The translations under genes were made by a program, and so were the position numbers. Shown piece by piece: positions 3,229-51,879 of a stretch of DNA of 52,813 nt. Position 1 is the stretch's first letter, and each line of letters begins with the position of its first letter. The stretch is from a virus: IMG/VR virus record IMGVR_UViG_3300042308_001282, positions 1 to 52,813 of that record; one strand, 5' to 3'. The notes under the pieces are model-generated. The model did no database searches. It saw nothing but the letters and a program-made list of their open reading frames with translations, and had not been told where the DNA came from.

Positions 3229-5723
3229 TGAGGTTTTATACCAACGTTCAGATGGTCGGAGATCAATTTCTTGTTCGTGGTTATGAAAATGGAAATCATT
3301 TCATGACTCGTGAGAAATTTGCTCCGACTCTTTTTGTGCCTTCAAATAAAAAAACTAATTATAAAACTTTAAATGGTGAATATGTAGAAAAAATTCATCC
3401 AGGTTTTGTTCGTGATTGTAGGGAGTTTATAAAAAAATATGATGGTGTAGAAGGATTTAAAATTTACGGGAATGAGAGATATATCTATCAGTATATTTCC
3501 GAAAATTATTCTGAGGATGAAATCAAATTTGATATTAGTAAAATTAAATTAATGACCTTGGATATTGAGGTTGCATCAGAAAATGGGTTCCCCGATGTAG
3601 AAAATGCTGCAGAAGAAGTTCTTCTCATTACTCTACAAGATTATACAACCAAGGAAATTATTACTTGGGGTATGGGACCATTCAAGCATAATCGTAATAA
3701 AGTTACTTATCGACAATTTAACAACGAGTATGACCTTTTGAATGATTTTATTCATTGGTGGATGGATAATACTCCAGAAGTTGTGACTGGGTGGAATAGT
3801 AAACTTTACGATATTCCATATCTTGTTCGTCGCCTAGACCGTGTGCTTGGTGAAAAACTTATGAAGAGAATGTCTCCTTGGGGTTTGGTAACTGAGGATG
3901 AAGTTTATATTTCTGGTCGTAAAAATATTTCTTATGATATTGGGGGTATCTCGCAGTTAGACTATCTTGACCTTTATAAAAAATTCACCTACAAGGCACA
4001 GGAATCATACCGACTTGATTATATTGCCGAAGTTGAACTTGGTCAGAAAAAACTAGATCACTCTGAGTTTGATACGTTCAAGGACTTTTATACTAAAGGT
4101 TGGCAGAAGTTTGTAGAATACAACATCATTGACGTAGAACTTGTTGACCGTTTGGAAGACAAGATGAAATTGATTGAACTTGCACTTACTATGGCATATG
4201 ACGCCAAAGTAAACTATGAGGATGTATTTTCTCAGGTTAGGATGTGGGACACTATCATTTACAATTATCTCAAAAAGAGAAACATTGTAATTCCTCCAAA
4301 TGAAAGATCTGATAAAGATTCCAAATATGCTGGTGCTGATGTAAAAGAACCAATTCCTGGTGCTTATGACTGGGTTGTGAGTTTTGACTTGAACTCTCTA
4401 TACCCTCACCTTATTATGCAATACAACATTTCTCCAGAGACTCTTTTAGATAATCGCCATCCTACAGTAAATGTAGATAAAATTCTTAATAAAGAACTAA
4501 CATTTGACTCTTATAAAGACTTTGCCGTATGTGCTAACGGTGCAATGTACCGTAAGGATGTTCGTGGATTCCTTCCAGAACTGATGGAAAAGATTTACAC
4601 TGAACGTGTGGTGTTTAAGAAAAAAATGCTTGCTGCGGAACAGGAATATGAAAAGAAAAAGACGAAAGAGTTGGAAAAAGAGATTGCAAGATGCAACAAC
4701 ATCCAAATGGCGAGGAAAATTCAACTTAACTCTGCTTATGGTGCTATCGGCAATCAGTACTTTCGTTATTTTAAACTAGCAAACGCTGAAGCCATTACTT
4801 TATCTGGACAGGTTTCTATTCAGTGGATTATGAATAAAATGAATGCCTATCTGAATAAAATTCTTAAGACGGGAGATGTTGATTATGTTATTGCTTCGGA
4901 TACTGATTCTCTTTATATTAATATGGGTCCTTTGGTTGACAGTGTATTCAAGGGAAGAGAGAAAACTACTCAAGGCATTGTTTCGTTCCTTGATAAGGTC
5001 TGTCAAGTGGAATTTGAGAAATATATTGAAAGTTCTTACCAAGAATTGGCTGAGTATGTGAATGCCTATGATCAGAAGATGTTTATGAAGCGTGAATGTG
5101 TTGCTGAACGTGGAATTTGGACTGCCAAAAAACGCTACATTCTGAATGTTTGGGATAGTGAAGGTGTTCGTTACGAAGAACCTAAACTTAAAATTAAAGG
5201 AATTGAAGCAATTAAATCATCTACTCCTGCTCCATGCAGAAAAATGTTTAAAGATGGATTTAAAATAATGATGAGTGGAACGGAAGATGATGTTATCGAG
5301 TATATCGATAAATGTAGACAATTGTTTAAGACTCTTCCCCCAGAACAAATTGCATTCCCAAGAAGTGCATCTGATGTTCGCAAATATAAATCGTCATCGG
5401 ACATTTATATAAAAGGTACACCTGTTCATATTCGTGGAGCACTATTGTTTAATCATTATATCAAAGAAAAAAAATTAACTAATAAATATTCTCTTATTGG
5501 TAATGGTGAAAAAGTGAAGTTTATTTATTTAAAAAAACCAAATATCATTAGGGAAAATATTATATCTTTTATACAAGAATTCCCAAAAGAATTGGGTATT
5601 GACAAGTACATTGATTATGACTTACAATTTGAGAAGGCATTCTTAGAACCATTTAGATCTATTTTAGATGCTATCGGATGGAAAGTTGAAAAAATAAATA
5701 CCTTAGAATCTTTTTTCTCATGA
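3228..5723 (+). CDS. 43: Family B DNA polymerase gp43
   Basis: 831 residues, a little shorter than T4 gp43 (898). It is the replicative polymerase with 3'-5' proofreading. The exonuclease domain shows Exo I TLDIEVAS (D112, E114), Exo II around TGWNSKLYDIPYLVRR and Exo III YNIIDVELVDRL. The polymerase domain shows motif A FDLNSLYPHLIMQYN (about 386-400), motif B QLNSAYGAIGNQYF (about 500-515) and motif C ASDTDSLYI (Asp about 558 and 560). All catalytic carboxylates are present and there is no intein or insertion. It is TAATG-coupled upstream and ATGA-coupled downstream. Confidence 0.97.
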   Translation: MRFYTNVQMVGDQFLVRGYENGNHFMTREKFAPTLFVPSNKKTNYKTLNGEYVEKIHPGFVRDCREFIKKYDGVEGFKIYGNERYIYQYISENYSEDEIKFDISKIKLMTLDIEVASENGFPDVENAAEEVLLITLQDYTTKEIITWGMGPFKHNRNKVTYRQFNNEYDLLNDFIHWWMDNTPEVVTGWNSKLYDIPYLVRRLDRVLGEKLMKRMSPWGLVTEDEVYISGRKNISYDIGGISQLDYLDLYKKFTYKAQESYRLDYIAEVELGQKKLDHSEFDTFKDFYTKGWQKFVEYNIIDVELVDRLEDKMKLIELALTMAYDAKVNYEDVFSQVRMWDTIIYNYLKKRNIVIPPNERSDKDSKYAGADVKEPIPGAYDWVVSFDLNSLYPHLIMQYNISPETLLDNRHPTVNVDKILNKELTFDSYKDFAVCANGAMYRKDVRGFLPELMEKIYTERVVFKKKMLAAEQEYEKKKTKELEKEIARCNNIQMARKIQLNSAYGAIGNQYFRYFKLANAEAITLSGQVSIQWIMNKMNAYLNKILKTGDVDYVIASDTDSLYINMGPLVDSVFKGREKTTQGIVSFLDKVCQVEFEKYIESSYQELAEYVNAYDQKMFMKRECVAERGIWTAKKRYILNVWDSEGVRYEEPKLKIKGIEAIKSSTPAPCRKMFKDGFKIMMSGTEDDVIEYIDKCRQLFKTLPPEQIAFPRSASDVRKYKSSSDIYIKGTPVHIRGALLFNHYIKEKKLTNKYSLIGNGEKVKFIYLKKPNIIRENIISFIQEFPKELGIDKYIDYDLQFEKAFLEPFRSILDAIGWKVEKINTLESFFS

Positions 5724-24949: not shown

Positions 24950-25024
24950 TTCCCAACGGGTTCTGTGGTATTCTTAAGGAGTGGTTGAGAGACCACCAGC
25001 ACCTTGACAATCTAAACCTTTAAT

Positions 25025-25097
25025 GGGTCTGTTGCATAGCGGCTAATGCACCTGGCTTTTAACCAGTATATCGTGGGTTCGAGTCCCACCAGACCCA
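25025..25097 (+). tRNA. tRNA-Lys (UUU)
   Basis: Acceptor GGGTCTG/CAGACCC, discriminator A, T arm GTGGG-TTCGAGT-CCCAC, anticodon loop CTTTTAA. First gene of the tRNA array; CCA is not encoded. Confidence 0.93.
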
Positions 25098-25135
25098 TTG
25101 ACCGCTACAGTTCGGTCATTAAACATAAACTGTTC

Positions 25136-25217
25136 GGGTAGGTGTCCGAGTGGTTAATGGAGGAGGTCTGTAAAACCTCTGGCTCTGCCTACGGGGGTTC
25201 AAATCCCTCCCTGCCCA
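25136..25217 (+). tRNA. tRNA-Tyr (GUA)
   Basis: Acceptor GGGTAGG/CCTGCCC, anticodon loop CTGTAAA in stem GAGGT/ACCTC, long class II variable arm typical of bacterial tRNA-Tyr. Confidence 0.92.
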
Positions 25218-25221
25218 CCTT

Positions 25222-25295
25222 GACCCATTAGTGTAGCGGTTTATCACGCCACCCTGTCACGGTGGAGATCACGGGTTCAAATCCCGTATGGGTCG
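25222..25295 (+). tRNA. tRNA-Asp (GUC)
   Basis: Acceptor GACCCAT/ATGGGTC, discriminator G, anticodon loop CTGTCAC in stem CCACC/GGTGG. Confidence 0.94.
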
Positions 25296-25343
25296 TTGCT
25301 ACGCTGCCTGTGGAGTATTCCTCCTTGGTGGTTGTAGCATCAT

Positions 25344-25415
25344 GGTCCTATCGTCTAGTGGTGAGGACATCACTCTTTCACAGTGAAGACACGGGTTCAA
25401 ATCCCGTTAGGACTA
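25344..25415 (+). tRNA. tRNA-Glu (UUC)
   Basis: Anticodon loop CTTTCAC in stem TCACT/AGTGA; acceptor GGTCCTA/TAGGACT with a terminal G-U pair; T arm ACGGG/CCCGT. Confidence 0.92.
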
Positions 25416-25418
25416 CCA

Positions 25419-25495
25419 CGGAATGTAGCGCAGTTTGGTAGCGCATCTGTTTTGGGAACAGAGGGTCGCAGGTTCGAATCCTGTCATTCCGACCA
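25419..25495 (+). tRNA. tRNA-Pro (UGG), copy 1
   Basis: Acceptor CGGAATG/CATTCCG, discriminator A, encoded CCA, anticodon loop TTTGGGA. It directly abuts the next tRNA. A second Pro(UGG) gene lies at 29260. Confidence 0.94.
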
Positions 25496-25568
25496 GGAAA
25501 CATAGCTTAGTTGGTAAAGCATTCGACTGATAATCGAAAGAGCACTGGTTCGAGTCCAGTTGTTTCCA
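25496..25568 (+). tRNA. tRNA-Ile (GAU)
   Basis: Acceptor GGAAACA/TGTTTCC, anticodon loop CTGATAA in stem TTCGA/TCGAA, no spacer from tRNA-Pro. Confidence 0.93.
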
Positions 25569-25591
25569 TTGTTGCCTTAAGGCAACATTAA

Positions 25592-25681
25592 GGAAGTGTG
25601 GCAGAGAGGTCTAATGCAGTGGATTGCTAATCCGCCGATGTTCTTTAAGGGCATCCGTTGGTTCGAATCCAACCACTTCCG
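25592..25681 (+). tRNA. tRNA-Ser (GCU)
   Basis: Class II with long variable arm; acceptor GGAAGTG/CACTTCC, discriminator G, anticodon loop TTGCTAA. The following spacer 25682-25768 has hairpins (AGCAAG/CTTGCT; CTCTT/AAGAG inside CTGAC/GTCAG) but no gene. Confidence 0.92.
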
Positions 25682-25768
25682 TAGGACTCCAGCAAGGTGC
25701 TTGCTAGGATATAAAAGACTGACGCCTCCCTCTTCAGAAAGAGTAACCAGCAGGTCAGCGTCCACTTT

Positions 25769-25840
25769 GGCAGTGTAGTTCAGTGGTAGAACAAGAGATT
25801 CATACCCTCTATGTCGGTAGTTCAATTCTACCCACTGCCT
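25769..25840 (+). tRNA. tRNA with CAU anticodon (Met or Ile2), copy 1
   Basis: Acceptor GGCAGTG/CACTGCC, anticodon loop TTCATAC. One of three CAU genes. Lysidine-modified Ile(CAU) cannot be told from Met by sequence alone here. Confidence 0.88.
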
Positions 25841-25841
25841 T

Positions 25842-25913
25842 GTGTCGTTAGCCTAGTGGTTAAGGCAGTAGTTTGTGGAACTACCTAGATGGGTTCAATT
25901 CCCATACGACACC
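25842..25913 (+). tRNA. tRNA-His (GUG)
   Basis: Acceptor GTGTCGT/ACGACAC, discriminator C as usual for His, anticodon loop TTGTGGA in stem GTAGT/ACTAC. The -1 base in the gene is T, not the usual G. Confidence 0.93.
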
Positions 25914-25915
25914 CC

Positions 25916-25987
25916 GCCCTTATAGCTCAGTGGTAGAGCAACTCACTAGTAATGAGTAGGTCGTTGGTTCAAATCCGACTGAGGGCT
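25916..25987 (+). tRNA. tRNA-Thr (AGU), rare A34 anticodon
   Basis: Acceptor GCCCTTA/TGAGGGC, anticodon stem ACTCA/TGAGT, loop CTAGTAA giving AGU. A34 in Thr tRNA is rare in bacteria. Confidence 0.9.
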
Positions 25988-26022
25988 CTCAACTATCTGA
26001 AATTTCCAGATAGTTCATACAA

Positions 26023-26094
26023 TCCAGAATCGACTAACTGGCAGGTCAGCACCCTTTGAAGGTGTACGTCTAGGTTCGAATCCTAGTTCTGGAA
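26023..26094 (+). tRNA. tRNA-Gln (UUG)
   Basis: Acceptor TCCAGAA/TTCTGGA, anticodon loop CTTTGAA in stem GCACC/GGTGT. Preceded by a perfect 9-bp spacer hairpin at 25991-26015. Confidence 0.92.
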
Positions 26095-26112
26095 TTGCCC
26101 CTAATGGGGCAA

Positions 26113-26284
26113 CAATCTGTCCAACACTGGGGTTCGACTCCCCACATCTCCACTCTTGGGGATGAACTGGCATTCGACTGGGCAGAGGGTTCTGAGAATA
26201 AATCTCAACAACATCGTATCTTTCCGCAGAACTGCTGTTGCCGTTTGAGCAATAGCACTTTGAGCGAACTGGGGAGTAATCCCT
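26113..26284 (+). ncRNA. ssrA: Circularly permuted (two-piece) tmRNA
   Basis: The acceptor piece comes first: TCTGTCC, T arm CTGGGG-TTCGACT-CCCCA, CATCTCC and discriminator A at 26152. After only five bases the coding piece begins with GGGGATG at 26158. GGGGATG pairs with CATCTCC (7 bp, with G3-U70, the alanine identity pair), and GGGCAGA pairs with TCTGTCC (P2). The conserved GGCATTCGAC lies in the D-like arm. The tag frame at 26207-26248 reads NNIVSFRRTAVAV then TGA, resembling the marine cyanobacterial ANNIVxFxR...APVAA tag; the resume position reads CTC instead of an Ala codon. A GGGGAGTAATCCC-T5 hairpin ends it. Confidence 0.87.
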
Positions 26285-26290
26285 TTTTCT

Positions 26291-26365
26291 GTTGGGTTGG
26301 TGCAATTGGTAGCATCTCGGTCTCCAAAACCGAAGATCAGAGTTCAAGTCTCTGGCCCTTCGCCA
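26291..26365 (+). tRNA. tRNA-Trp (CCA)
   Basis: Anticodon loop CTCCAAA in stem TCGGT/ACCGA, T arm CAGAG/CTCTG, encoded CCA. The acceptor GTTGGGT/GCCCTTC has two U-U mismatches (pairs 2 and 3), so function or editing is uncertain. Confidence 0.82.
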
Positions 26366-26366
26366 T

Positions 26367-26443
26367 ACCCTCTTAACTCAGTGGACCAGAGTGCTTGGCT
26401 ACGAACCAAGAAGTCGCAAGTTCGAATCTTGCAGAGGGTGCCA
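26367..26443 (+). tRNA. tRNA-Arg (ACG)
   Basis: Acceptor ACCCTCT/AGAGGGT, discriminator G, encoded CCA, anticodon loop CTACGAA in stem CTTGG/CCAAG. Confidence 0.94.
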
Positions 26444-26480
26444 TTTAAATCTAAATAGCAACAAGAGGTGTGATAGGAAA

Positions 26481-26951
26481 ATGGAATTAGTAGAACCACA
26501 CTCAACTATACTAGTTTTGAATAGTTCTTACGAGCCACTACACTTCACTAATTGGAAACGTGCAATAGTTTTACTTTTCAAACAGAAAGCAAAACTTATC
26601 TCCAAGAGAATTATTCGTTTGGTGAATTATGTGAAAATTCCATTTTCCTATGGAAGATCAGATTACCCGACGAGAGCACTCATCTATAAACGGGATGATT
26701 ATGAGTGTCAGTATTGTGAGTCTAAAAATGACCTTACAATTGACCACATAATTCCCCGCTCAAAAGGTGGTAAAGATACTTGGGATAATTTAGTTGCTTG
26801 TTGCACATCTTGTAATCTCAAAAAAGGAAATAAACTTCTTAAAGAGACTAATATGATCTTAAAGAGTATTCCGCAAGCACCAATTAGTAGAGTAATACTT
26901 GATATTCAGAAAACAAAAGTTTCTGAATGGAAGGACTATTTGTTTCAGTGA
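26481..26951 (+). CDS. HNH endonuclease
   Basis: 156 residues from ATG 26481; an upstream in-frame start would lie inside the tRNA-Arg gene. The N-terminus STILVLNSSYEPLHFTNWKR is shared by a widespread bacterial HNH family. The nuclease core is YECQYCESKNDLTIDHIIPR, then SKGGKDTWDNLVACC..CN, with two CxxC zinc pairs and the His-Asn-His set. CTAAATAG (26451-26458) could be a late promoter. It is inserted between tRNA genes, a common place for mobile nucleases, but lacks NUMOD repeats. Confidence 0.88.
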   Translation: MELVEPHSTILVLNSSYEPLHFTNWKRAIVLLFKQKAKLISKRIIRLVNYVKIPFSYGRSDYPTRALIYKRDDYECQYCESKNDLTIDHIIPRSKGGKDTWDNLVACCTSCNLKKGNKLLKETNMILKSIPQAPISRVILDIQKTKVSEWKDYLFQ

Positions 26952-26955
26952 GAGA

Positions 26956-26984
26956 TTGACAAATTTTTGAAAATACCCTAATAT
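26956..26984 (+). promoter_or_regulatory. Sigma70 promoter for downstream tRNAs
   Basis: TTGACA (26956-26961), 17 bp, TAATAT (26979-26984), starting just after the HNH stop codon. Confidence 0.8.
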
Positions 26985-27046
26985 ATAAAGACAGAGGTTA
27001 AGTCCCTGTTACATCCTTATGAGGTGTATCACACTTAATCCATCAT

Positions 27047-27121
27047 CGTGGGGAAGTGTAATGGTTGCACAGAAGTCTCATAAGCTTCAGGTAGGTGGTT
27101 CAACTCCATCCCCCGCCTCCA
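27047..27121 (+). tRNA. tRNA with CAU anticodon, copy 2 (unpaired first base)
   Basis: Anticodon loop CTCATAA in stem GAAGT/GCTTC, encoded CCA. The acceptor CGTGGGG/CCCCGCC has a C1-C72 mismatch, reminiscent of initiator tRNAs, but it lacks the three G-C pairs of initiator anticodon stems. Confidence 0.82.
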
Positions 27122-27194
27122 GCCCTTGTATTCCAATGGTAGAGAAGGTGGACTTAGAATCCATACAGTGTAAGTTCGAATCTTACCAGGGGCA
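27122..27194 (+). tRNA. tRNA-Leu (UAG) with short variable loop
   Basis: Acceptor GCCCTTG/CAGGGGC, anticodon loop CTTAGAA in stem GTGGA/TCCAT, T arm GTAAG/CTTAC. The variable region is only about five bases, whereas bacterial tRNA-Leu is normally class II. Confidence 0.82.
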
Positions 27195-27195
27195 C

Positions 27196-27224
27196 TTGAC
27201 AATCAAACTTAAATAGTTTATAAT
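27196..27224 (+). promoter_or_regulatory. Perfect sigma70 promoter
   Basis: TTGACA (27196-27201), 17 bp, TATAAT (27219-27224), immediately ahead of tRNA-Gly. Confidence 0.85.
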
Positions 27225-27234
27225 TGTCTTATAA

Positions 27235-27306
27235 GCGGAGTTAGTTCAGCGGTAGAACGCTATCCTTCCAAGTTAGATGTCGTCGGTTCGATTCCGATAC
27301 TCCGCT
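27235..27306 (+). tRNA. tRNA-Gly (UCC)
   Basis: Acceptor GCGGAGT/ACTCCGC, anticodon loop CTTCCAA. The anticodon stem has one T-T mismatch. A GAACC-TTCG-GGTTC hairpin follows. Confidence 0.9.
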
Positions 27307-27358
27307 CTGAACCTTCGGGTTCTATAAACACACAAACACACTTCATAGGAGAATACTT

Positions 27359-27556
27359 ATGACGCCTTATCAACTTAGATTTGAAGTTTTTAAGCAAGCT
27401 TATGCGATGCTTTCGGATAATTATCATGTAGAGTTTGCAAAAGCAGAATGCTCTAATGGTGGCAAATTGCCGGATGGATTTGATTTAAAATATCCAACTC
27501 TTTCTGATGTTCTTGGGCACGCAGAAACGATTAATGATTTTGTAAGTTCTAAGTAA
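27359..27556 (+). CDS. Conserved small cyanophage protein (65 aa)
   Basis: Starts MTPYQLRFEVFKQAYAMLSD under an ATAGGAGA ribosome site. It is helical, with a C-terminal YPTLSDVLGHAETINDFV segment. It lies between tRNA genes and is likely co-transcribed from the promoter at 27196. Function unknown. Confidence 0.7.
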   Translation: MTPYQLRFEVFKQAYAMLSDNYHVEFAKAECSNGGKLPDGFDLKYPTLSDVLGHAETINDFVSSK

Positions 27557-27564
27557 TAGAACAT

Positions 27565-27636
27565 TCCCCTGTGGCGCAGCGGTAGCGCGAGAAACTGTTA
27601 ATTTCCAGGTCACAAGTTCGAATCTTGTCGGGGGAG
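27565..27636 (+). tRNA. tRNA-Asn (GUU)
   Basis: Acceptor TCCCCTG/CGGGGGA, discriminator G, anticodon loop CTGTTAA. Confidence 0.93.
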
Positions 27637-27655
27637 TTGCTATCAGTAGCAAACT

Positions 27656-27733
27656 GTAGGTGCCAAATACCCCTTCTGGTTAATGCTGGAAGAAGTAAAG
27701 AGTGTGGACATAGGTAAAGTCCACAACACCTAC
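27656..27733 (+). ncRNA. Structured tRNA-sized RNA of unknown function
   Basis: A 7-bp closing stem GTAGGTG (27656-27662) / CACCTAC (27727-27733). A 7-bp stem-loop TGTGGAC/GTCCACA (27703-27725) is stacked beside its 3' strand, like an acceptor-T arm pair. There is no T-loop consensus and no recognisable anticodon arm. It lies between tRNA-Asn and a degenerate tRNA. Confidence 0.45.
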
Positions 27734-27738
27734 CACAA

Positions 27739-27810
27739 CCTCTGGTAGTCTATTGGTAAGGACGGGCGGATAACGCACTTGGAAACTAGGTTCGATTCCT
27801 AGACAGAGGT
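27739..27810 (+). tRNA. tRNA-like gene with degenerate anticodon arm
   Basis: Acceptor CCTCTGG/ACAGAGG (last pair mismatched), D arm GTC...GAC, T arm CTAGG-TTCGATT-CCTAG. The anticodon arm GGGCG-GATAACG-CACTT pairs poorly and lacks U33, so no anticodon can be assigned. It is either a decayed tRNA or one with an odd loop. Confidence 0.6.
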
Positions 27811-27813
27811 AAC

Positions 27814-27886
27814 GGGAGCATAGCTCAGCGGTAGCAGCGTCTGCTTTACACGCAGAATGTCGGGGGTTCGAATCCCTCTGCTCCCA
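27814..27886 (+). tRNA. tRNA-Val (UAC)
   Basis: Acceptor GGGAGCA/TGCTCCC, anticodon loop TTTACAC in stem TCTGC/GCAGA. Confidence 0.94.
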
Positions 27887-27890
27887 CTTG

Positions 27891-27898
27891 CATAAATA
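27891..27898 (+). promoter_or_regulatory. Late promoter CATAAATA
   Basis: Late-type motif 15 bp before the dps ATG. Confidence 0.6.
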
Positions 27899-27913
27899 TT
27901 GAAAAAGAGTATA

Positions 27914-28348
27914 ATGGAAAAACTGTTTAAACTTTTAAGTGATGCTCAGTCATCACTTTTTGTTTTATTTCATAAAACTTGGGCATTTCATTGGAATGTA
28001 GTTGGTGAAGATTTCACACAACTACATCAACTCTTTGGTGGACAGTATGAGACTATGTTTGAAGAGATTGATCGTCTTTCTGAACATATGAGATACTTAA
28101 ATGTAAAACCATTAAGTTCTCTTTCAAGAATGCTTGAAGTGACTCAAATCAAAGAGTCTGCAAGTTCAACTGGAGCAAAAGAAATGCTTCAGGAACTTCT
28201 GGATAATAACACCAAGTTTTGTGAGTTAATGGCAGAGATTTCGGAAGAAGCAGAAGAACAAAAGTCTTATGCAACTGCCAATCTAGTTCAAGACTTAATG
28301 GAATCTCATGGTAAATTTGTATGGATGTTGAGATCACATTTACAGTGA
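27914..28348 (+). CDS. dps: Dps/ferritin-like protein
   Basis: 144 residues from ATG 27914. The Dps ferroxidase signature is present: KTWAFHWNVVGEDFTQLHQL (His about 30, with further acidic/His ligands) and QYETMFEEIDRLSEHMRYL. A C-terminal LMESHGKFVWMLRSHLQ helix follows. Dps proteins form 12-mers that oxidise iron with peroxide and may coat DNA. A short late-type promoter precedes it. A role in peroxide or iron stress during infection, or packaging, is plausible. Confidence 0.88.
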   Translation: MEKLFKLLSDAQSSLFVLFHKTWAFHWNVVGEDFTQLHQLFGGQYETMFEEIDRLSEHMRYLNVKPLSSLSRMLEVTQIKESASSTGAKEMLQELLDNNTKFCELMAEISEEAEEQKSYATANLVQDLMESHGKFVWMLRSHLQ

Positions 28349-28363
28349 TAAGGATGAAGAAAA

Positions 28364-28615
28364 ATGATTTCAATAAGATGTAAAGATTGCAATAAAGAAT
28401 TAACAGGACACCCATCAAAAACAGTTACTTGTGGGTGTCCTAATATGGCAACAATTCGTGGAGACAAGATTTCGGCACTTGACTTATCTCGAATTGTCAT
28501 GCTAAACTCTCTAAAAGAAAATCAAAACAAAAGTGTGCTTACTTCTCAAGACATTGCTTGGCAAGAAGCACGTCGTCAACGTAAAGTAAGACGACTTGAT
28601 TTTGAAGTCCGTTGA
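28364..28615 (+). CDS. Zinc-ribbon-like small protein
   Basis: 83 residues, starting MISIRCKDCNKELTGHPSKT, then VTCGCPNMATIRGDKI. The two CxxC/CxC groups suggest zinc binding. The C-terminal half is basic and helical (WQEARRQRKVRRLDFEVR). It follows dps by 15 bp and is probably co-transcribed. Function unknown. Confidence 0.7.
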   Translation: MISIRCKDCNKELTGHPSKTVTCGCPNMATIRGDKISALDLSRIVMLNSLKENQNKSVLTSQDIAWQEARRQRKVRRLDFEVR

Positions 28616-28626
28616 GGACTTAATTT

Positions 28627-28713
28627 GGAAGGTCAATCCGATTGGCGACGGAACCGCTCTTGAAAAGCGTTGAGGTGTTAAAGCCCTTGGGAGTTCGACT
28701 CTCCCACCTTCCG
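28627..28713 (+). tRNA. tRNA-Ser (UGA)
   Basis: Class II; acceptor GGAAGGT/ACCTTCC, discriminator G, anticodon loop CTTGAAA, long variable arm. Confidence 0.93.
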
Positions 28714-28826
28714 TTTAGAAAAGTTACAAATTTAACAATTTCTTCAACAGTGTTAAGATATCAACACAAAAAGTTGACTGCGAAATACCTGTGATTAGTA
28801 TATAGTAGTATCACGGGGACGAACCG

Positions 28827-28976
28827 ATGGATCAACATACTTACGAAAATTGGGTGAAAATCAAAGAAACATTTGAAACTTCTGGTAATATTGATAATAT
28901 GTTTTACAAAAGAGCCGTTCAAATTGTTAAAACAAGAGTCGATCCTCTTGCAAAGTTTTTGGGAGATGAGAAGTGA
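28827..28976 (+). CDS. Small conserved protein (49 aa)
   Basis: ATG 28827 (MDQHTYENWVKIKETFETSG) to TGA 28974-28976, with ACGGGGAC upstream as ribosome site. A weak promoter (TTGACT 28774, TATATA 28799) precedes it in 28714-28826. Its TGA overlaps the ATG of the next gene. Function unknown. Confidence 0.65.
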   Translation: MDQHTYENWVKIKETFETSGNIDNMFYKRAVQIVKTRVDPLAKFLGDEK

Positions 28977-29143
28977 TGGAACCTGGGGATGAATTTATTA
29001 GTAGGTCTGAAGTGCAGGAGATGATCGACCAAGCTATTGACAAACACAATAAAACTGCTACAATAATATCAGCAGCAATCGGTTCGGTTCTGCTCTTCTT
29101 CTATGCCCACGGCGTCATTGCTATTATAGATAGAGTACAATGA
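28976..29143 (+). CDS. Small membrane protein (55 aa)
   Basis: Begins MEPGDEFISRSEVQEMIDQA, then one transmembrane helix (TATIISAAIGSVLLFFYAHG) and a short tail. It is coupled by TGATG upstream and overlaps the next gene (ATGA). Function unknown. Confidence 0.65.
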   Translation: MEPGDEFISRSEVQEMIDQAIDKHNKTATIISAAIGSVLLFFYAHGVIAIIDRVQ

Positions 29144-29259
29144 GACACTTTGCTCATTTAATTTTGGATAATCAGGTTTCGCTTTTTATCCTTTGCTACC
29201 TCTTGACAATGGTTCCAATCATGGGTATAATGATTATACACCAAACAAAAGAAAAATAA
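29140..29259 (+). CDS. Tiny membrane protein (39 aa)
   Basis: ATG 29140 to TAA 29257-29259: a hydrophobic peptide starting MRHFAHLILDNQVSLFILCY with a helix to about residue 33. A perfect sigma70 promoter lies within its coding sequence. The overlap coupling supports translation. Confidence 0.5.
   Translation: MRHFAHLILDNQVSLFILCYLLTMVPIMGIMIIHQTKEK
29203..29231 (+). promoter_or_regulatory. Perfect sigma70 promoter
   Basis: TTGACA (29203-29208), 17 bp, TATAAT (29226-29231), driving tRNA-Pro at 29260 from inside the preceding small gene. Confidence 0.8.
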
Positions 29260-29335
29260 CGGAGTATCGCCTAACTTGGTCATGGCACCTGCTTTGGGAG
29301 CAGGAATAATTTCGGTTCAAATCCGAATACTCCGA
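29260..29335 (+). tRNA. tRNA-Pro (UGG), copy 2
   Basis: Acceptor CGGAGTA/TACTCCG, discriminator A, anticodon loop TTTGGGA in stem CCTGC/GCAGG. It has the same anticodon as the gene at 25419 but a clearly different body, so it is not a recent duplicate. Confidence 0.92.
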
Positions 29336-29351
29336 TCATAAAAATAACTTT

Positions 29352-29579
29352 ATGAAAATGCAAGAACTAGAAGAACTTCAATCCTTTACAGTCGAAGAGT
29401 TTCAATCTGATTTTGACAATCTAATACAAAGAGTAGAAAACGGTGAATCATTTATCATACGAGATGGAAATAATAGCGCAGTGATAGTTCCTTACAACGA
29501 AACCATAAAGTACGCAATAGAATCAACTGTGGATGACGAACTGATACGTCTTCACACAGACCACGAAGAAGGTTCTTGA
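29352..29579 (+). CDS. Phd/YefM-like antitoxin without adjacent toxin
   Basis: 75 residues. The segment SFTVEEFQSDFDNLIQRVEN, then GESFIIRDGNNSAVIVPYNE, is the Phd/YefM pattern: an N-terminal DNA-binding dimer domain with x.F...l..v..Ge.fii.....aViv. The C-terminus is acidic (toxin-binding type). The next element is a promoter and a tRNA, so no partner toxin is encoded. It could neutralise a host toxin or act as a repressor. Confidence 0.75.
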   Translation: MKMQELEELQSFTVEEFQSDFDNLIQRVENGESFIIRDGNNSAVIVPYNETIKYAIESTVDDELIRLHTDHEEGS

Positions 29580-29604
29580 CACAGAGTTCCAGATCCTCTA
29601 TAAT
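29576..29604 (+). promoter_or_regulatory. Perfect sigma70 promoter
   Basis: TTGACA (29576-29581, overlapping the antitoxin stop), 17 bp, TATAAT (29599-29604), serving the last two tRNAs. Confidence 0.82.
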
Positions 29605-29618
29605 AGATTCAGATTCAA

Positions 29619-29706
29619 GCGAGTGAGACTTGGTAGTCAGAGGGCACTTATAACGCCTTTCCGCCAGATTAGCGGCTTTGACCTGGTTCGAATCCAGGCA
29701 CTCGTA
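29619..29706 (+). tRNA. Class II tRNA, anticodon apparently UAU
   Basis: Acceptor GCGAGTG/CACTCGT, variable arm with stem CCGC/GCGG, T arm CCTGG/CCAGG. The best anticodon loop is CTTATAA (UAU, Ile AUA) with an A-C mismatch closing it. A long variable arm fits Leu or Ser, not Ile, so identity is open. Confidence 0.72.
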
Positions 29707-29734
29707 TTGTTATTCGTGATTTGCGAATAGCGAA

Positions 29735-29809
29735 TGCCCGTTTGGCCCTCTGGTGAAGGCAATCTGCTCATAACAGATAGAAGGTCGGATCGTAACCGAC
29801 AACGGGCAT
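29735..29809 (+). tRNA. tRNA with CAU anticodon, copy 3
   Basis: Acceptor TGCCCGT/ACGGGCA, anticodon loop CTCATAA in stem ATCTG/CAGAT. The T loop is ATCGTAA instead of TTCRANN. It is followed by T6 and is the last of the array. Confidence 0.85.
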
Positions 29810-32974: not shown

Positions 32975-33816
32975 TGAAATTACAGAATTGTAAATATACC
33001 TCTGCATCGGGTGGATGTGATCTTCTAGGACATCCAGAAATGAATGTCCTAGACTGTCTCTGGAATTGTGGATTTTATTCTAATCAGTTTCAGATTTTTT
33101 GTTCACTTCTAATTTTAATGAGACATGGGATTGTTCCTGATAAAATTGATTATTCAATGGGATTCAAACATTTTAAAAAAGATCCTAATCAGGACATTTA
33201 TCCGTTATTTCATCAGATAGATAAGAATCAACCAGTAGACCTTTTTGCAGATATTGATATTCCTGATGCAAATAAGTTTCAAAAAAATCTTTACAATTTT
33301 GAAATTTACAATCAAATCACAAAGAGATTCTTTAATCCAAGTGATATTATTAATGATAGAAAAAAATATTTGCTAGAGAAGTATCAGATAGATACTTCAA
33401 AAACAATTTCAGTTTTGTATAGAGGAACTGATAAGGGAACCGAATTAAAACTTGCTAATCCAGAGCAGTATATGGTAGTTACTAAAAGTCTTCTTAGTCA
33501 AAATAGTGACTTTAAAGTTTTGCTTCAAACTGATCAAACTCAAGTGATTCATTATTTTCACGAAGAATTGAGAGATAGATTAGTTATATTTGAAGAGACT
33601 CCATCTACAACATCTAATCGTGTTATATGGAGTCTCATGGAGCAGAATGGTGCAGATTCAATTGATTGGTCTCAGTGGTTTGATGCTGCACTTAGGTGTG
33701 TTTCTGATTGTAAATATGTTGTAAATCATACTGGAAATGTTGGTATGTTTATGAATTTGTATAGAGGAAATTTGGAAGGAGTATATCAATTTAATGAAAG
33801 TGGAGATTTGGGATGA
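32974..33816 (+). CDS. Putative glycosyltransferase (fucosyltransferase-like motif)
   Basis: 280 residues. ISVLYRGTDKGTE (about 146-158), followed by FKVLLQTDQTQVIHYF, resembles the HxRGTD donor-binding motif of alpha-1,6-fucosyltransferase-type enzymes. The same pair of motifs recurs in the protein at 40386 (VHYRGTDG...FLTTDQTNVI). TAATG-coupled upstream, ATGA overlap downstream. Confidence 0.62.
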   Translation: MKLQNCKYTSASGGCDLLGHPEMNVLDCLWNCGFYSNQFQIFCSLLILMRHGIVPDKIDYSMGFKHFKKDPNQDIYPLFHQIDKNQPVDLFADIDIPDANKFQKNLYNFEIYNQITKRFFNPSDIINDRKKYLLEKYQIDTSKTISVLYRGTDKGTELKLANPEQYMVVTKSLLSQNSDFKVLLQTDQTQVIHYFHEELRDRLVIFEETPSTTSNRVIWSLMEQNGADSIDWSQWFDAALRCVSDCKYVVNHTGNVGMFMNLYRGNLEGVYQFNESGDLG

Positions 33817-47439: not shown

Positions 47440-47449
47440 AGAATACTCA

Positions 47450-47475
47450 AAGCGCCCCAAAAGGGCGCTTTTTTA
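47450..47475 (+). terminator. Intrinsic terminator
   Basis: AAGCGCCC (47450-47457) / GGGCGCTT (47463-47470) and T4. Confidence 0.9.
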
Positions 47476-47504
47476 ATAAATAGAATATCGAATGGATAAG
47501 GACA

Positions 47505-48194
47505 ATGAGAGTAGATCTTCATAACTTTTTTCAGTATTATGATCCAAAGAATCCTAAACATGTTGCAGCAGTCGAACAACTAGAAGTTGACTTAAAGGAT
47601 TCTCCTCTACTTGACGATAGTTCTAATTGGGTCAAAATTTATAGAACAAAACCAACTGTTCCGGGAGTCCTACCCGTTCCTTTTTATCCACAGACAGATA
47701 ATTATAGAGATGCGCAAAGAACCTGCAATTCATCTGCTTGTGCAATGTGCCTAGAGTATTTCAAACCAGGCACTCTCCAAGGAGCAAAGGGTGATGATAC
47801 CTATATTCAAAAAGTATTTGCAATTGGTGATACAACTGATCACACCGTACAGACAAAAGTTCTGGAAGGTTATGGTATTAAGTCACGATTTAGTTACAAT
47901 CTTGGGTTTGCTGATCTTGATCGTGAGTTATCCGCTGGGAGACCTGTTGTTATTGGTATCCTTCACAGGGGCACTCTATCTGCACCTACTGGTGGGCACA
48001 TGGTTGTAGTGATTGGGAAGAGAGGTGAGGATTATGTTGTGAACGATCCTTACGGTTCTCTGAATGATGGATATACTGGACCAGTCACAAACGGTAAAGG
48101 TGCGGTGTATAAGAAATCTGATCTGAACTTCCGTTGGTTAGAAAAAGGTAAAGATAAGACTGGTTGGGGGCGTATTTTTGACGCAAAAAAGTAG
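47505..48194 (+). CDS. C39-like cysteine peptidase, zero-frame product
   Basis: 229 residues. VPFYPQTDNYRDAQRTCNSS, then ACAMCLEYF, is the catalytic Cys region of peptidase C39-like proteins; TGGHMVVVIGKRGEDYVVND carries the His and Asn/Asp. It may be peptidoglycan-active. The gene ends ...GCA AAA AAG TAG. This A AAA AAG heptamer is a classical -1 slip site, followed four bases later by a 13-bp stem-loop. The -1 frame continues into a lysozyme domain that has no start codon of its own. An AATAAATAGAATA motif at 47475-47487 could be its late promoter. Confidence 0.85.
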   Translation: MRVDLHNFFQYYDPKNPKHVAAVEQLEVDLKDSPLLDDSSNWVKIYRTKPTVPGVLPVPFYPQTDNYRDAQRTCNSSACAMCLEYFKPGTLQGAKGDDTYIQKVFAIGDTTDHTVQTKVLEGYGIKSRFSYNLGFADLDRELSAGRPVVIGILHRGTLSAPTGGHMVVVIGKRGEDYVVNDPYGSLNDGYTGPVTNGKGAVYKKSDLNFRWLEKGKDKTGWGRIFDAKK

Positions 48195-48251
48195 AAAGTT
48201 CTACTCCTGATTCGAGTAAAAGTGATATATCCATAAAAGGAGTAGAACTTA
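48185..48251 (+). promoter_or_regulatory. Predicted -1 ribosomal frameshift signal
   Basis: Slippery A-AAA-AAG at 48185-48191, zero-frame TAG at 48192-48194, then stem AAGTTCTACTCCT (48196-48208) / AGGAGTAGAACTT (48238-48250), 13 perfect base pairs with a 29-nt loop. Confidence 0.72.
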
Positions 48252-48685
48252 TAAAAGAATTTGAAGGATGTCACTTAAATGCTTATCCAGACCCTTTAAC
48301 AAAAGGACCACCGATTACAATTGGTTGGGGAAGCACTAGAGACTTTGACGGAACGCCATTTAAAATAGGTAGAGTGATTACTCAAAAGTATGCAGACACT
48401 CTACTTGAGTTTGATTTAAAGAATAGATTTTTACCATCACTTCAAAGAATACCTTACTGGAATGAAATGAATGAAAATCAACAAGGAGCTCTTCTATCTT
48501 TTGCTTATAATCTTGGTGCTGGTTTTTACGGGTCTTCCAATTTTAATACCATAACCAGAGTTCTTAAGAATAAAGAGTGGTCTAAAGTTCCTGATGCTTT
48601 ATATCTTTACCGCAATCCTGGAACAAGTGTGGAAGCGGGTTTGAAAAGAAGAAGAGTTGCAGAAGGTAAACTCTGGTCTTCTTAA
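48191..48685 (+). CDS. GH24 lysozyme domain expressed by -1 frameshift (fusion with C39 peptidase)
   Basis: Open in the -1 frame from the slip site to TAA 48683-48685. The catalytic region GVELIKEFEGCHLNAYPDPL (Glu in EFEG, Asp in PDP) and ITIGWGSTRD (Thr/Ser position) match GH24 muramidases. NENQQGALLSFAYNLGAG and a GLKRRRVAEGKLW tail complete the fold. There is no ATG, GTG or TTG before the catalytic residues; the first GTG is 48374, beyond them. Expression as a peptidase-lysozyme fusion is the simplest reading; a one-base sequencing error in the A run is the alternative. Confidence 0.78.
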   Translation, partial: VESSTPDSSKSDISIKGVELIKEFEGCHLNAYPDPLTKGPPITIGWGSTRDFDGTPFKIGRVITQKYADTLLEFDLKNRFLPSLQRIPYWNEMNENQQGALLSFAYNLGAGFYGSSNFNTITRVLKNKEWSKVPDALYLYRNPGTSVEAGLKRRRVAEGKLWSS

Positions 48686-48918
48686 TCATCCATCTTTGCT
48701 TTTAATCCAAGCAACGCAGTAAACAAAGTAAACAACGCACTATATCCTTTGTCTATAGAGTTTTCGCACTTTATAGATGGGGGATTTTTTAATTCTCCTT
48801 TTGCATTGGCACTTTCAATAGATCCAGGGATCATAAAGTTGCAGTTGGTAAATGTAATACCAACATACCCTACAGTGCAAACTACAATAATAATGATTAA
48901 TTTGTCTAGTATTTTCAT
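48682..48918 (-). CDS. Small membrane protein, possible holin
   Basis: 78 residues, minus strand. N-terminal helix LDKLIIIIVVCTVGYVGITF, a polar middle with two Cys, and a second hydrophobic stretch YSALFTLFTALLGLKAK. It converges on the lysozyme gene with a 4-bp overlap. Size, two hydrophobic segments and position next to a muramidase are compatible with a holin, but no family match is recognised. Coupled by ATGA to the upstream minus gene. Confidence 0.65.
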   Translation of the reverse strand: MKILDKLIIIIVVCTVGYVGITFTNCNFMIPGSIESANAKGELKNPPSIKCENSIDKGYSALFTLFTALLGLKAKMDD

Positions 48919-49334: not shown

Positions 49335-49505
49335 AAATAGGTAAACAAATGTTACGAGTCTCTCATAACTCTTAACATTGTTAAACACCCATTAACCGAG
49401 ACCTATGGGGTGTATAAATTACGTCTCTCATATCTTCTCTAGGGGTGAGAAGAAATATTGAACCCTGTTCGTCCCCACGAACTCTTACTTAACCCTTTTT
49501 CAAAT

Positions 49506-51879
49506 ATGACTGCTTCAATCGCTTCACGCCGTTCTGGCGAAAACCTCTGGGAACAATTCTGTTCCTGGGTAACTTCAACCGATAATAGACTGTATGTTGG
49601 TTGGTTCGGAGTCCTTATGATTCCTTGCCTTCTTGCTGCTACAACTTGTTTTATTATCGCTTTCATCGGTGCTCCCCCTGTAGACATAGACGGTATCCGT
49701 GAACCCGTTGCTGGTTCACTAATGTATGGAAACAACATCATCTCTGGTGCTGTTATTCCAAGTTCTAATGCCATTGGATTGCATTTTTACAGCATCTGGG
49801 ATGCTGCTTCTCTTGATGAGTGGCTTTATAAATAATATTGGGTCACTTTAAATCGGGTGAACTGCTGGAAAGCTAAGTTCTTTATGAAACACAAACATCA
49901 CCTTACTCCAAAATATCTTGGTGGTTCTAACGAATCCCAAAATCTTGTAGAAGTTTCTACAACTCAACACGCTATGTTTCATTATTGTAACTGGCGTCTT
50001 TGGGGAAACGAAGAAGATAAGATTGCTTGGAAAGCACTTGCAGGATACTCTAAAAAAGAGGAAATAATTCATCAAGTTATTTCTCTTGCAGGTAAAAGAG
50101 GTGGTAAGGTTGCAAAAGAAAGCGGACAACTTCGGTCTGCTGCTCTTAAACAACCAAGAAGTGTAAGGCAAAAGATTGGTAAAAATCTTATCAACTATGC
50201 CTACAAAAATCCAAAGAATGCAACACAAGAAACTCTTACTAATAGAAAATACAGTAAAGTATTTCACATTTATGAAAAACTAACTGAAAGGACTATTGGT
50301 AATCATCTTGGGGATGTAGTTTTTAATCCAGAAGAAGATAAAACACTCAAAACTGTTTGTTCTATTATTCTGGAAAAATATGGGGTAAAAGTTTATCCTT
50401 CACATCTTAATAGTGTTGCTAATGGAAATAGACTTTTAACAAGTGGTATTTCTTGTAGTTGGATTTTAGAGAATATGCCAATCAGCATCCAAGCCACAGA
50501 CGATACTTCTGTGGAAGGTTCAGAGACTACTGGGTTCAACAAGCGTGTTGAGTAATACCAGATTAGCGCCCGACATCTTATAAAAAATAAGATGAAGATA
50601 TAGTCCAGTCCATATGGAAACATATGGTTCCCCCGACTGCTATAATGGGGGTCCTTTCCAACTTGTTGTCTTCCACTTCCTCATCGGCATCTACTGCTAT
50701 ATGGGTCGTGAATGGGAACTCTCTTACCGTCTAGGTATGCGCCCTTGGATTATGGTTGCTTATAGCGCACCTGTTGCTGCTGCGAGTGCTGTATTCCTGG
50801 TCTATCCTTTCGGTCAAGGTTCTTTCTCTGATGCGATGCCTCTTGGTATCTCTGGTACATTCAACTACATGCTTGTATTCCAGGCAGAGCACAACATCCT
50901 GATGCACCCCTTCCACATGCTTGGAGTTGCTGGTGTCTTCGGTGGTTCTCTTTTCTCTGCTATGCACGGATCTCTTGTCACCTCTAGTCTTGTACGTGAG
51001 ACTACAGAAAATGAGTCACAGAACTACGGATACAAGTTCGGACAAGAAGAAGAAACCTACAACATTGTAGCTGCTCATGGTTATTTTGGTCGCCTTATCT
51101 TCCAATATGCTTCCTTCAATAACTCACGTTCACTTCACTTCTTCCTTGCTGCTTGGCCCGTTGTAGGCATCTGGTTCACTGCTCTTGGTGTTTCTACAAT
51201 GGCTTTTAACCTCAATCGTCGGGGTCCCGTCTTAGCAATTTGACGGTAAACATCGGGTGAACTGCTGGAAGCCCTCCATAAATGGGTAATCAGCATCCAA
51301 GTCCAAAGTACACTTTGGAAAGGTTCAGAGACTACCTGAGGAGTTCAGTCTCCTTAATAACAGGAATAAGTGCCCGACATCCTAAATGGATGAAGATATA
51401 GTCCACTCCTTAAAGATGGTAAATTTAAGGGTTCAGTGCAACGGTTTTAATTTCAATCAGTCCATCATTGACTCACAAGGTCGTGTCCTTAATACTTGGG
51501 CAGATGTACTGAATCGTGCAGGTCTCGGAATGGAGGTCATGCATGAACGGAACGCTAGATTTGTTGGTGTTCTTGCTTAGGAATAAGCATTAGTAAAATC
51601 GGGTTAAACGGGGAAACTCTCTATGAGACAATCCCGTACCAAGTCAGAAAGGGTTTAAGTTTTCTGAAAGGTCTAACGACTAGATGGTGAGTCCCAACAA
51701 TAATCCATCCACGAATGCCCGACATCCAGAACGGATGAAGAGATAGTCTGAACTTACTAGTGATAGTAAGAAGTAGAGGATAAAGAACCACTACGATAAC
51801 AAAATTGCACAACTTCCCACTTGACCTTGCCGCAGCAGAAGCAACACCAGTTGCTCTTACTGCTCCCGCAATCGGTTGA
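49506..51879 (+). CDS. psbA: Photosystem II D1 protein, gene split by three group I introns
   Basis: Exons 49506-49825, 50640-51212, 51439-51556 and 51808-51879 join in frame to 1083 nt, 360 residues plus stop, the normal D1 length. Joined codons read EWL|YNGGPF, FNL|NGFNF and ERNA|HNFPLD, matching D1. Each upstream exon ends in T and each intron in G, as group I splicing requires. [11 protein letters not shown] carries Glu at the D1 position 130 equivalent, the high-light type. Unusual residues FYSIWDAAS replace FYPIWEAAS. Phage D1 maintains photosystem II during infection. The psbA-psbD order is kept. Confidence 0.95.
49826..50639 (+). ncRNA. Group I intron 1 in psbA, HNH gene inside
   Basis: 814 nt. 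The internal guide GGTCACT (49841-49847) pairs with exon end AGTGGCT including the U-G splice pair. Core blocks are TCGGGTGAACTGCTGGAA (49853), AATCAGCATCCAAG (50480), GGTTCAGAGACTAC (50517) and GATGAAGATATAGTCCA (about 50591). A CATATG-GAAA-CATATG hairpin lies near the 3' end. Confidence 0.92.
49884..50555 (+). CDS. Intron-encoded HNH homing endonuclease
   Basis: 223 residues from ATG 49884; a GTG at 49857 falls in the ribozyme 5' core. HNH core [20 protein letters not shown], then [20 protein letters not shown]; Lys/Gly-rich middle, and a C-terminal [23 protein letters not shown]-binding-like segment. The last 25 codons (from [11 protein letters not shown]) overlap the ribozyme core. Related to the free-standing gene at 29857. 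Confidence 0.88.
   Translation: MKHKHHLTPKYLGGSNESQNLVEVSTTQHAMFHYCNWRLWGNEEDKIAWKALAGYSKKEEIIHQVISLAGKRGGKVAKESGQLRSAALKQPRSVRQKIGKNLINYAYKNPKNATQETLTNRKYSKVFHIYEKLTERTIGNHLGDVVFNPEEDKTLKTVCSIILEKYGVKVYPSHLNSVANGNRLLTSGISCSWILENMPISIQATDDTSVEGSETTGFNKRVE
51213..51438 (+). ncRNA. Group I intron 2 in psbA (no ORF)
   Basis: 226 nt, ending in G 51438. It shares the same core blocks in the same order as intron 1: ATCGGGTGAACTGCTGGAA (51252), AATCAGCATCCAAG, GGTTCAGAGACTAC and GATGAAGATATAGTCCA. Clearly a sibling of intron 1 without an endonuclease gene. The guide pairing with exon end AACCT is short (GGGGT). Confidence 0.9.
51557..51807 (+). ncRNA. Group I intron 3 in psbA (no ORF, different lineage)
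   Basis: 251 nt. Guide GGTGTTC (51566-51572) pairs with exon end GAACGCT with the terminal U-G pair. The core differs from introns 1 and 2: ACAATCCCGTACCAAGTCAG, GGTCTAACGACTAG and GATGAAGAGATAGTCTGAAC. It sits just before the D1 codon for the Mn-cluster His (H337 equivalent). Confidence 0.9.

Follow-up and report, generated by a model that had tools for sequence, protein, structure and literature searches.

How does a cyanophage lysin gene produce a muramidase whose reading frame has no conventional start codon ahead of its catalytic residues? We addressed this question at a locus in a 52,813-nucleotide stretch of viral DNA (IMG/VR record IMGVR_UViG_3300042308_001282), all of which we call the window. 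The answer that we favour, with a probability of about 0.92 on the sequence data, is that a programmed −1 ribosomal frameshift joins a C39 peptidase to a GH24 muramidase. The features of the locus are as follows.

47444 to 47473 (approximate), plus strand: terminator-like hairpin and T run (AAAGCGCCCCAAAAGGGCGCTTTTTT), closing the upstream peroxiredoxin gene.
47475 to 47482, plus strand: T4-type late-promoter-like motif AATAAATA, 30 nt 5' of the start codon.
47505 to 48194, plus strand: C39-like peptidase ORF in the zero frame, 229 aa, predicted 25.5 kDa.
48182 to 48685, plus strand: −1 frame with the GH24 muramidase domain (open frame and profile match), predicted fusion of 393 aa and 43.9 kDa.
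48185 to 48191, plus strand: slippery heptamer A AAA AAG, of the X XXY YYZ type in the zero frame, read from the sequence.
48192 to 48194, plus strand: zero-frame stop TAG, read from the sequence.
48196 to 48250, plus strand: candidate stimulatory stem-loop of 13 perfect bp, from folding and from covariation in relatives.
48263 to 48319, plus strand: catalytic codons Glu (48263-65), Asp (48290-92) and Thr (48317-19), read from the sequence.

By profile, the zero-frame ORF matched Peptidase_C39_2 (PF13529, E 2.5e-11) and the −1 frame matched Phage_lysozyme GH24 (PF00959, E 5.1e-22), both above the Pfam cut-off. In the peptidase, Q63, C74, H165 and D181 were invariant among the eight relatives compared, which fits a papain-like Cys/His/Asp arrangement with Gln. 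In the muramidase, the E-x8-D spacing is that of T4 lysozyme and the Thr lies three residues further on; we take the catalytic roles of these residues from what is known of GH24 and T4 lysozyme. The first ATG, GTG or TTG of the −1 frame is GTG 48374, downstream of all three catalytic codons, and only near-cognate ATA and ATT codons precede it. Profile match and coordinates thus bear out the first-pass annotation, which had described an intact GH24 domain with its Glu, Asp and Thr ahead of GTG 48374. Its further claim that the muramidase can be made only as a fusion holds strictly for ATG, GTG and TTG in the window but does not extend to near-cognate starts. Over the 40 codons running from LIKEFEG to just before GTG 48374, which include the catalytic residues, dS ranged from 0.5 to saturation and dN from 0.02 to 0.27. 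With dS so far above dN before that GTG, the −1 frame is under purifying selection as protein.

The 3' end of the peptidase ORF reads GCA AAA AAG TAG, so that the reported heptamer directly before the stop is correct to the base. Likewise, the perfect 13-bp stem starting four bases past the heptamer was found as described, with the arms AAGTTCTACTCCT (48196-48208, 5') and AGGAGTAGAACTT (48238-48250, 3'). Its fold reached −18.4 kcal/mol (z −5.2), and none of 200 shuffled sequences was as stable. The stem is separated from the heptamer by 4 nt and from the stop by 1 nt; such a spacer is near the lower limit of those usually seen and counts against a frameshift. When we looked for an upstream Shine-Dalgarno stimulator of the dnaX type, none could be established: a GGGGG lies about 14 nt upstream, but the same bases encode a conserved GWGR motif and are thus uninformative. 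Moreover, a heptamer followed by TAG is expected 0.5 times by chance in a window of this size, which is not rare, and the argument therefore rests on conservation. When the whole window was scanned for slippery heptamers that precede a stop and have an open −1 frame, three further matches came up, none retained: that at 5721 is the end of a DNA polymerase gene overlapping a small ATGA-started gene and that at 33814 adjoins an ATG start at 33813, both ordinary overlaps, while that at 4777, inside the DNA polymerase ORF, was judged a chance match. The window also carries 22 tRNA genes (25024-29809), among them one for tRNA-Lys(UUU), which would be the slipping tRNA at A AAA AAG. Besides the window, S-PM2 and two further records carry this gene, but it is not universal, and we therefore claim no link to the slip site.

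We infer that slippage does take place here, at some efficiency, as follows. A ribosome on AAA AAG, with the hairpin just ahead, would usually stop at TAG and release the 229-aa C39-like peptidase. Some ribosomes would instead re-pair one base back, from A AAA AAG to AAA AAA, and read on as GTA GAA AGT and so forth, adding a 164-aa GH24 muramidase and yielding a 393-aa two-enzyme lysin. Frameshifting would in this way fix an excess of peptidase over the bifunctional enzyme and keep the muramidase scarce.

We then compared the homologous junctions, 265 sequences in all, which gave 155 distinct junctions. In 124 of the 155, GH24 lies in the −1 frame and overlaps the C39 stop. Of these 124, 105 carry A_AAA_AAG in frame, either at the stop or adjacent to it, and 4 carry T_TTT_TTT in the right register (S-CAM7 type); the remaining 15 have neither heptamer, and all of them have a start codon near the stop. 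The arrangement of heptamer and −1 GH24 thus recurs in 109 distinct homologous junctions, beyond chance. Codon choice points the same way: the two junction lysines are always AAA AAG, though AAA and AAG are used 2519:1878 and about 24% would be expected per site. The other junctions comprise 11 in-frame C39-GH24 fusions, 3 pairs of separate genes, 7 cases of C39 only, 5 contig ends, 1 upstream GH24 and 4 swapped-order fusions. The last have GH24 before C39 in a single ORF (L004, L011, L150 and L157; for example S-CREM1 and S-CBS2).

These comparisons bear directly on the simplest alternative, namely that the A run was misread or misassembled and that the gene is a plain in-frame fusion. Such fusions with seven A do exist, in L152, L154 and L156, which differ from the frameshift type by a single A: L152 reads GTA AAA AAA GTA GAA AAC TCT, translated as DVKKVENSTP, next to the DAKKVESSTP predicted for the fusion in the window. 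(An AlphaFold2 model of this natural fusion, L152, made with 12 rows, had a mean pLDDT of 57 and was set aside.) However, six A are found in the near-identical and independent L013 and L014 from other metagenomes. In the cultured reference phage S-PM2 the junction reads GCA AAA AAG TAA, GH24 again lies in the −1 frame, and a hairpin is present. About 100 other homologous junctions keep the frame break as well, with a hairpin conserved through covariation. Because the break is thus shared by isolates and metagenomes alike, an error is already refuted, and we give it practically no weight. The seven-A state, which the first-pass annotation had named as fatal to its reading, is real and occurs in L152 and its near-copies, but it is a minority, derived or alternative state.

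The same holds for homologues with a normal lysozyme start, which exist in the S-SRM01 and L020 groups. In L020 (2684-3298), and likewise in L030, L047, L051 and L079, GH24 starts at an ATG of its own that overlaps the stop of the peptidase (ATGA), and it is extended N-terminally by about 50 aa (MSIKFIDAAENHK...). Such overlapping starts, together with a GGAG at Shine-Dalgarno-like spacing before ATA 48251, would fit separate production of the muramidase by re-initiation at a non-standard ATA or ATT past the stop. But this leaves the invariant heptamer unexplained, the GGAG belongs to the 3' arm and the coding sequence, S-CAM7 has no GGAG, and the relatives with overlapping starts mostly have no strong hairpin. 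We regard re-initiation as very unlikely. Hairpins are in fact mostly weak or absent in seven-A and normal-start relatives alike.

Where a heptamer is present, a hairpin follows it in most cases (106 junctions, median z −3.75). These hairpins form three families, of the GTTCTACTCC, TCAACACCAC and CGCCAACTAA types, which are unrelated in sequence and differ in register. With 15, 30 and 19 distinct arm pairs in the respective families, the 8-bp core (positions 7-14) is paired throughout and by several types of pair; the exceptions are single ones, at position 7 in two of the three families. In the 14-pair stem of the second family, 98.7% of cells pair, against 29-49% when the partner is slid, and three changes are two-sided (compensatory). 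Because both stem arms are coding, we also compared hairpin stability with synonymous recodings of each junction. Junctions without an overlapping start (n = 77) had a median MFE of −15.6 against a recoded mean of −8.4 (median z −2.7), whereas those with a start overlapping the stop (n = 13) mostly showed no excess over recoding (median z −0.6). Pairing is already favoured by the coding sequence, and for this reason p ≤ 0.01 was reached in only 52% of the junctions taken singly, the window's own p being 0.015, so that the case for the hairpin is a collective one. At the level of sequence, then, the site, its hairpin, their conservation, the covariation and selection on the −1 frame are all in place.

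The hairpin also bears on slippage of RNA polymerase on the A or T run, which would add one base to some transcripts and so create the fusion. Runs of A and of T can slip, and one extra A does give an in-frame fusion, as in L152. Six A, however, are generally considered short for such slippage, the hairpin, being downstream, would still be untranscribed at that point, and both the final G of the heptamer and the frame register are conserved. Transcript slippage is thus highly improbable. Together, conservation of the heptamer and of the frame break and covariation in the hairpin support the programmed ribosomal frameshift that the first-pass annotation had read at this site.

On a C39 tree of 108 rows, A-heptamer sites dominate, and start-overlap, fusion and split states are scattered. 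First, L152, a fusion, is sister to L147, a frameshift type. Second, the S-CAM7 T-heptamer pair nests among in-frame fusions, the enclosing branches being supported at 100/94 and 100/99; thus, T-heptamer frameshifting probably arose separately, as a second origin. The tree further informs the idea that the frameshift is real but that only the fusion matters, the short peptidase being a by-product of a shift that throttles a toxic lysin. In-frame fusions in other phages (L007, L142 and L175-L183) favour this idea, but C39-only relatives exist (L010, L215 and L245) and frameshifting evolved anew within the clade of fusions, an indication that the short product is worth making. We consider it unlikely that only the fusion matters, though it deserves more weight than the alternatives above. 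Since in-frame fusions, separate genes and C39-only relatives all exist, a two-product ratio is not essential in every phage. Where frameshifting is kept, the gain may lie in the excess of peptidase, or the shift may do no more than hold the muramidase in check.

When and for what would this lysin be made? Of 142 distinct upstream regions, 65 contained the string NATAAATA, mostly between −29 and −31, compared with 8 in shuffles. This late-promoter-like motif near −30 makes late expression of the lysin gene likely, and it is compatible with a lysis role or a virion role alike. Together with matches to PHROGs endolysin families, it suggests an endolysin, and host lysis is the most likely role of the predicted C39-GH24 lysin, the virion-lysin role that the first-pass annotation also named being less likely. 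Just downstream, abutting the lysin end and convergent with it, the minus strand encodes a 78-aa protein (48682-48918) whose N-terminus is strongly hydrophobic and which has another, weakly hydrophobic segment. This protein had no match in PHROGs. It is kept antisense downstream in 60 distinct frameshift-type loci, the S-PM2 region included, where the ORF carries no annotation, and it is possibly a holin or another lysis protein. Further on (49458-50600), a psbA-like sequence is, from its letters, seemingly interrupted by a stretch with a 232-aa ORF that resembles an HNH-type homing endonuclease, an arrangement presumably akin to intron-bearing cyanophage psbA.

Signals made of A AAA AAG plus a 3' stem-loop direct −1 frameshifting in E. 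coli dnaX and in IS3-family elements. The lysin site resembles them in its heptamer, in a stem-loop a few bases on and in products with a common N-terminus, and it differs in that two predicted peptidoglycan hydrolases are joined. Phage late genes also use −1 shifts, as in tail-assembly chaperones of the lambda G/GT type, where a minor extended product is made. That is another gene class, and the lysin extension is a complete second enzyme. To our knowledge, conserved phage −1 frameshifts have been described mainly in tail-assembly genes. The short products of the lysins CTP1L, LysIME-EF1 and Ms6 reportedly arise from internal starts and are C-terminal parts. These are cases of one lysin gene giving a long and a short product (CTP1L, PMC4777826; LysIME-EF1, PMC7098653; embedded lysin of Ms6, PMC3111421); in the cyanophage lysin, the short product would be the N-terminal enzyme, made by termination instead of shifting. 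A precedent by mechanism is given in PRFect (PMC10885494), where a phage lysin appears in a list of genes with known frameshifts, by reference to a 1994 lactococcal paper; it concerns another phage and another host. Among protein families, phrog_3617 (405 aa, "function unknown" in PHROGs) corresponds to the in-frame C39-GH24 fusion of ACG-2014f and matches both halves of the window gene, but it is a single ORF without a frameshift. We found no published report of a cyanophage lysin frameshift site in the literature searched, whose coverage left out most subscription papers. Frameshifting being a known mechanism, its use in a cyanophage C39-GH24 lysin appears new within that literature.

In GenBank, the lysins of S-PM2 (S-PM2p154) and S-CAM7 are short ORFs that start inside the domain and are truncated before the catalytic residues. 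A frameshift would explain these truncated, apparently inactive annotations, the genome annotations having missed the shift. The same truncation probably also lies behind small "endolysin" profile families, of which phrog_10457 (95 aa) is one. As S-PM2 and S-CAM7 are cultured model cyanophages, the lysin frameshift is directly testable. We tentatively suggest, at somewhat less than even odds, that frameshifting in cyanophages sets a ratio of peptidase to bifunctional muramidase that times or tunes lysis, that it evolved at least twice (with an A- and a T-heptamer), and that it can be exchanged for start-overlap coupling, in-frame fusion or separate genes. Frameshift, coupled start, fusion and split would then form a natural series in which to ask why phages maintain a set enzyme ratio and, if our reading is true, the lysin frameshift would be a model for the evolution of translational control of lysis.
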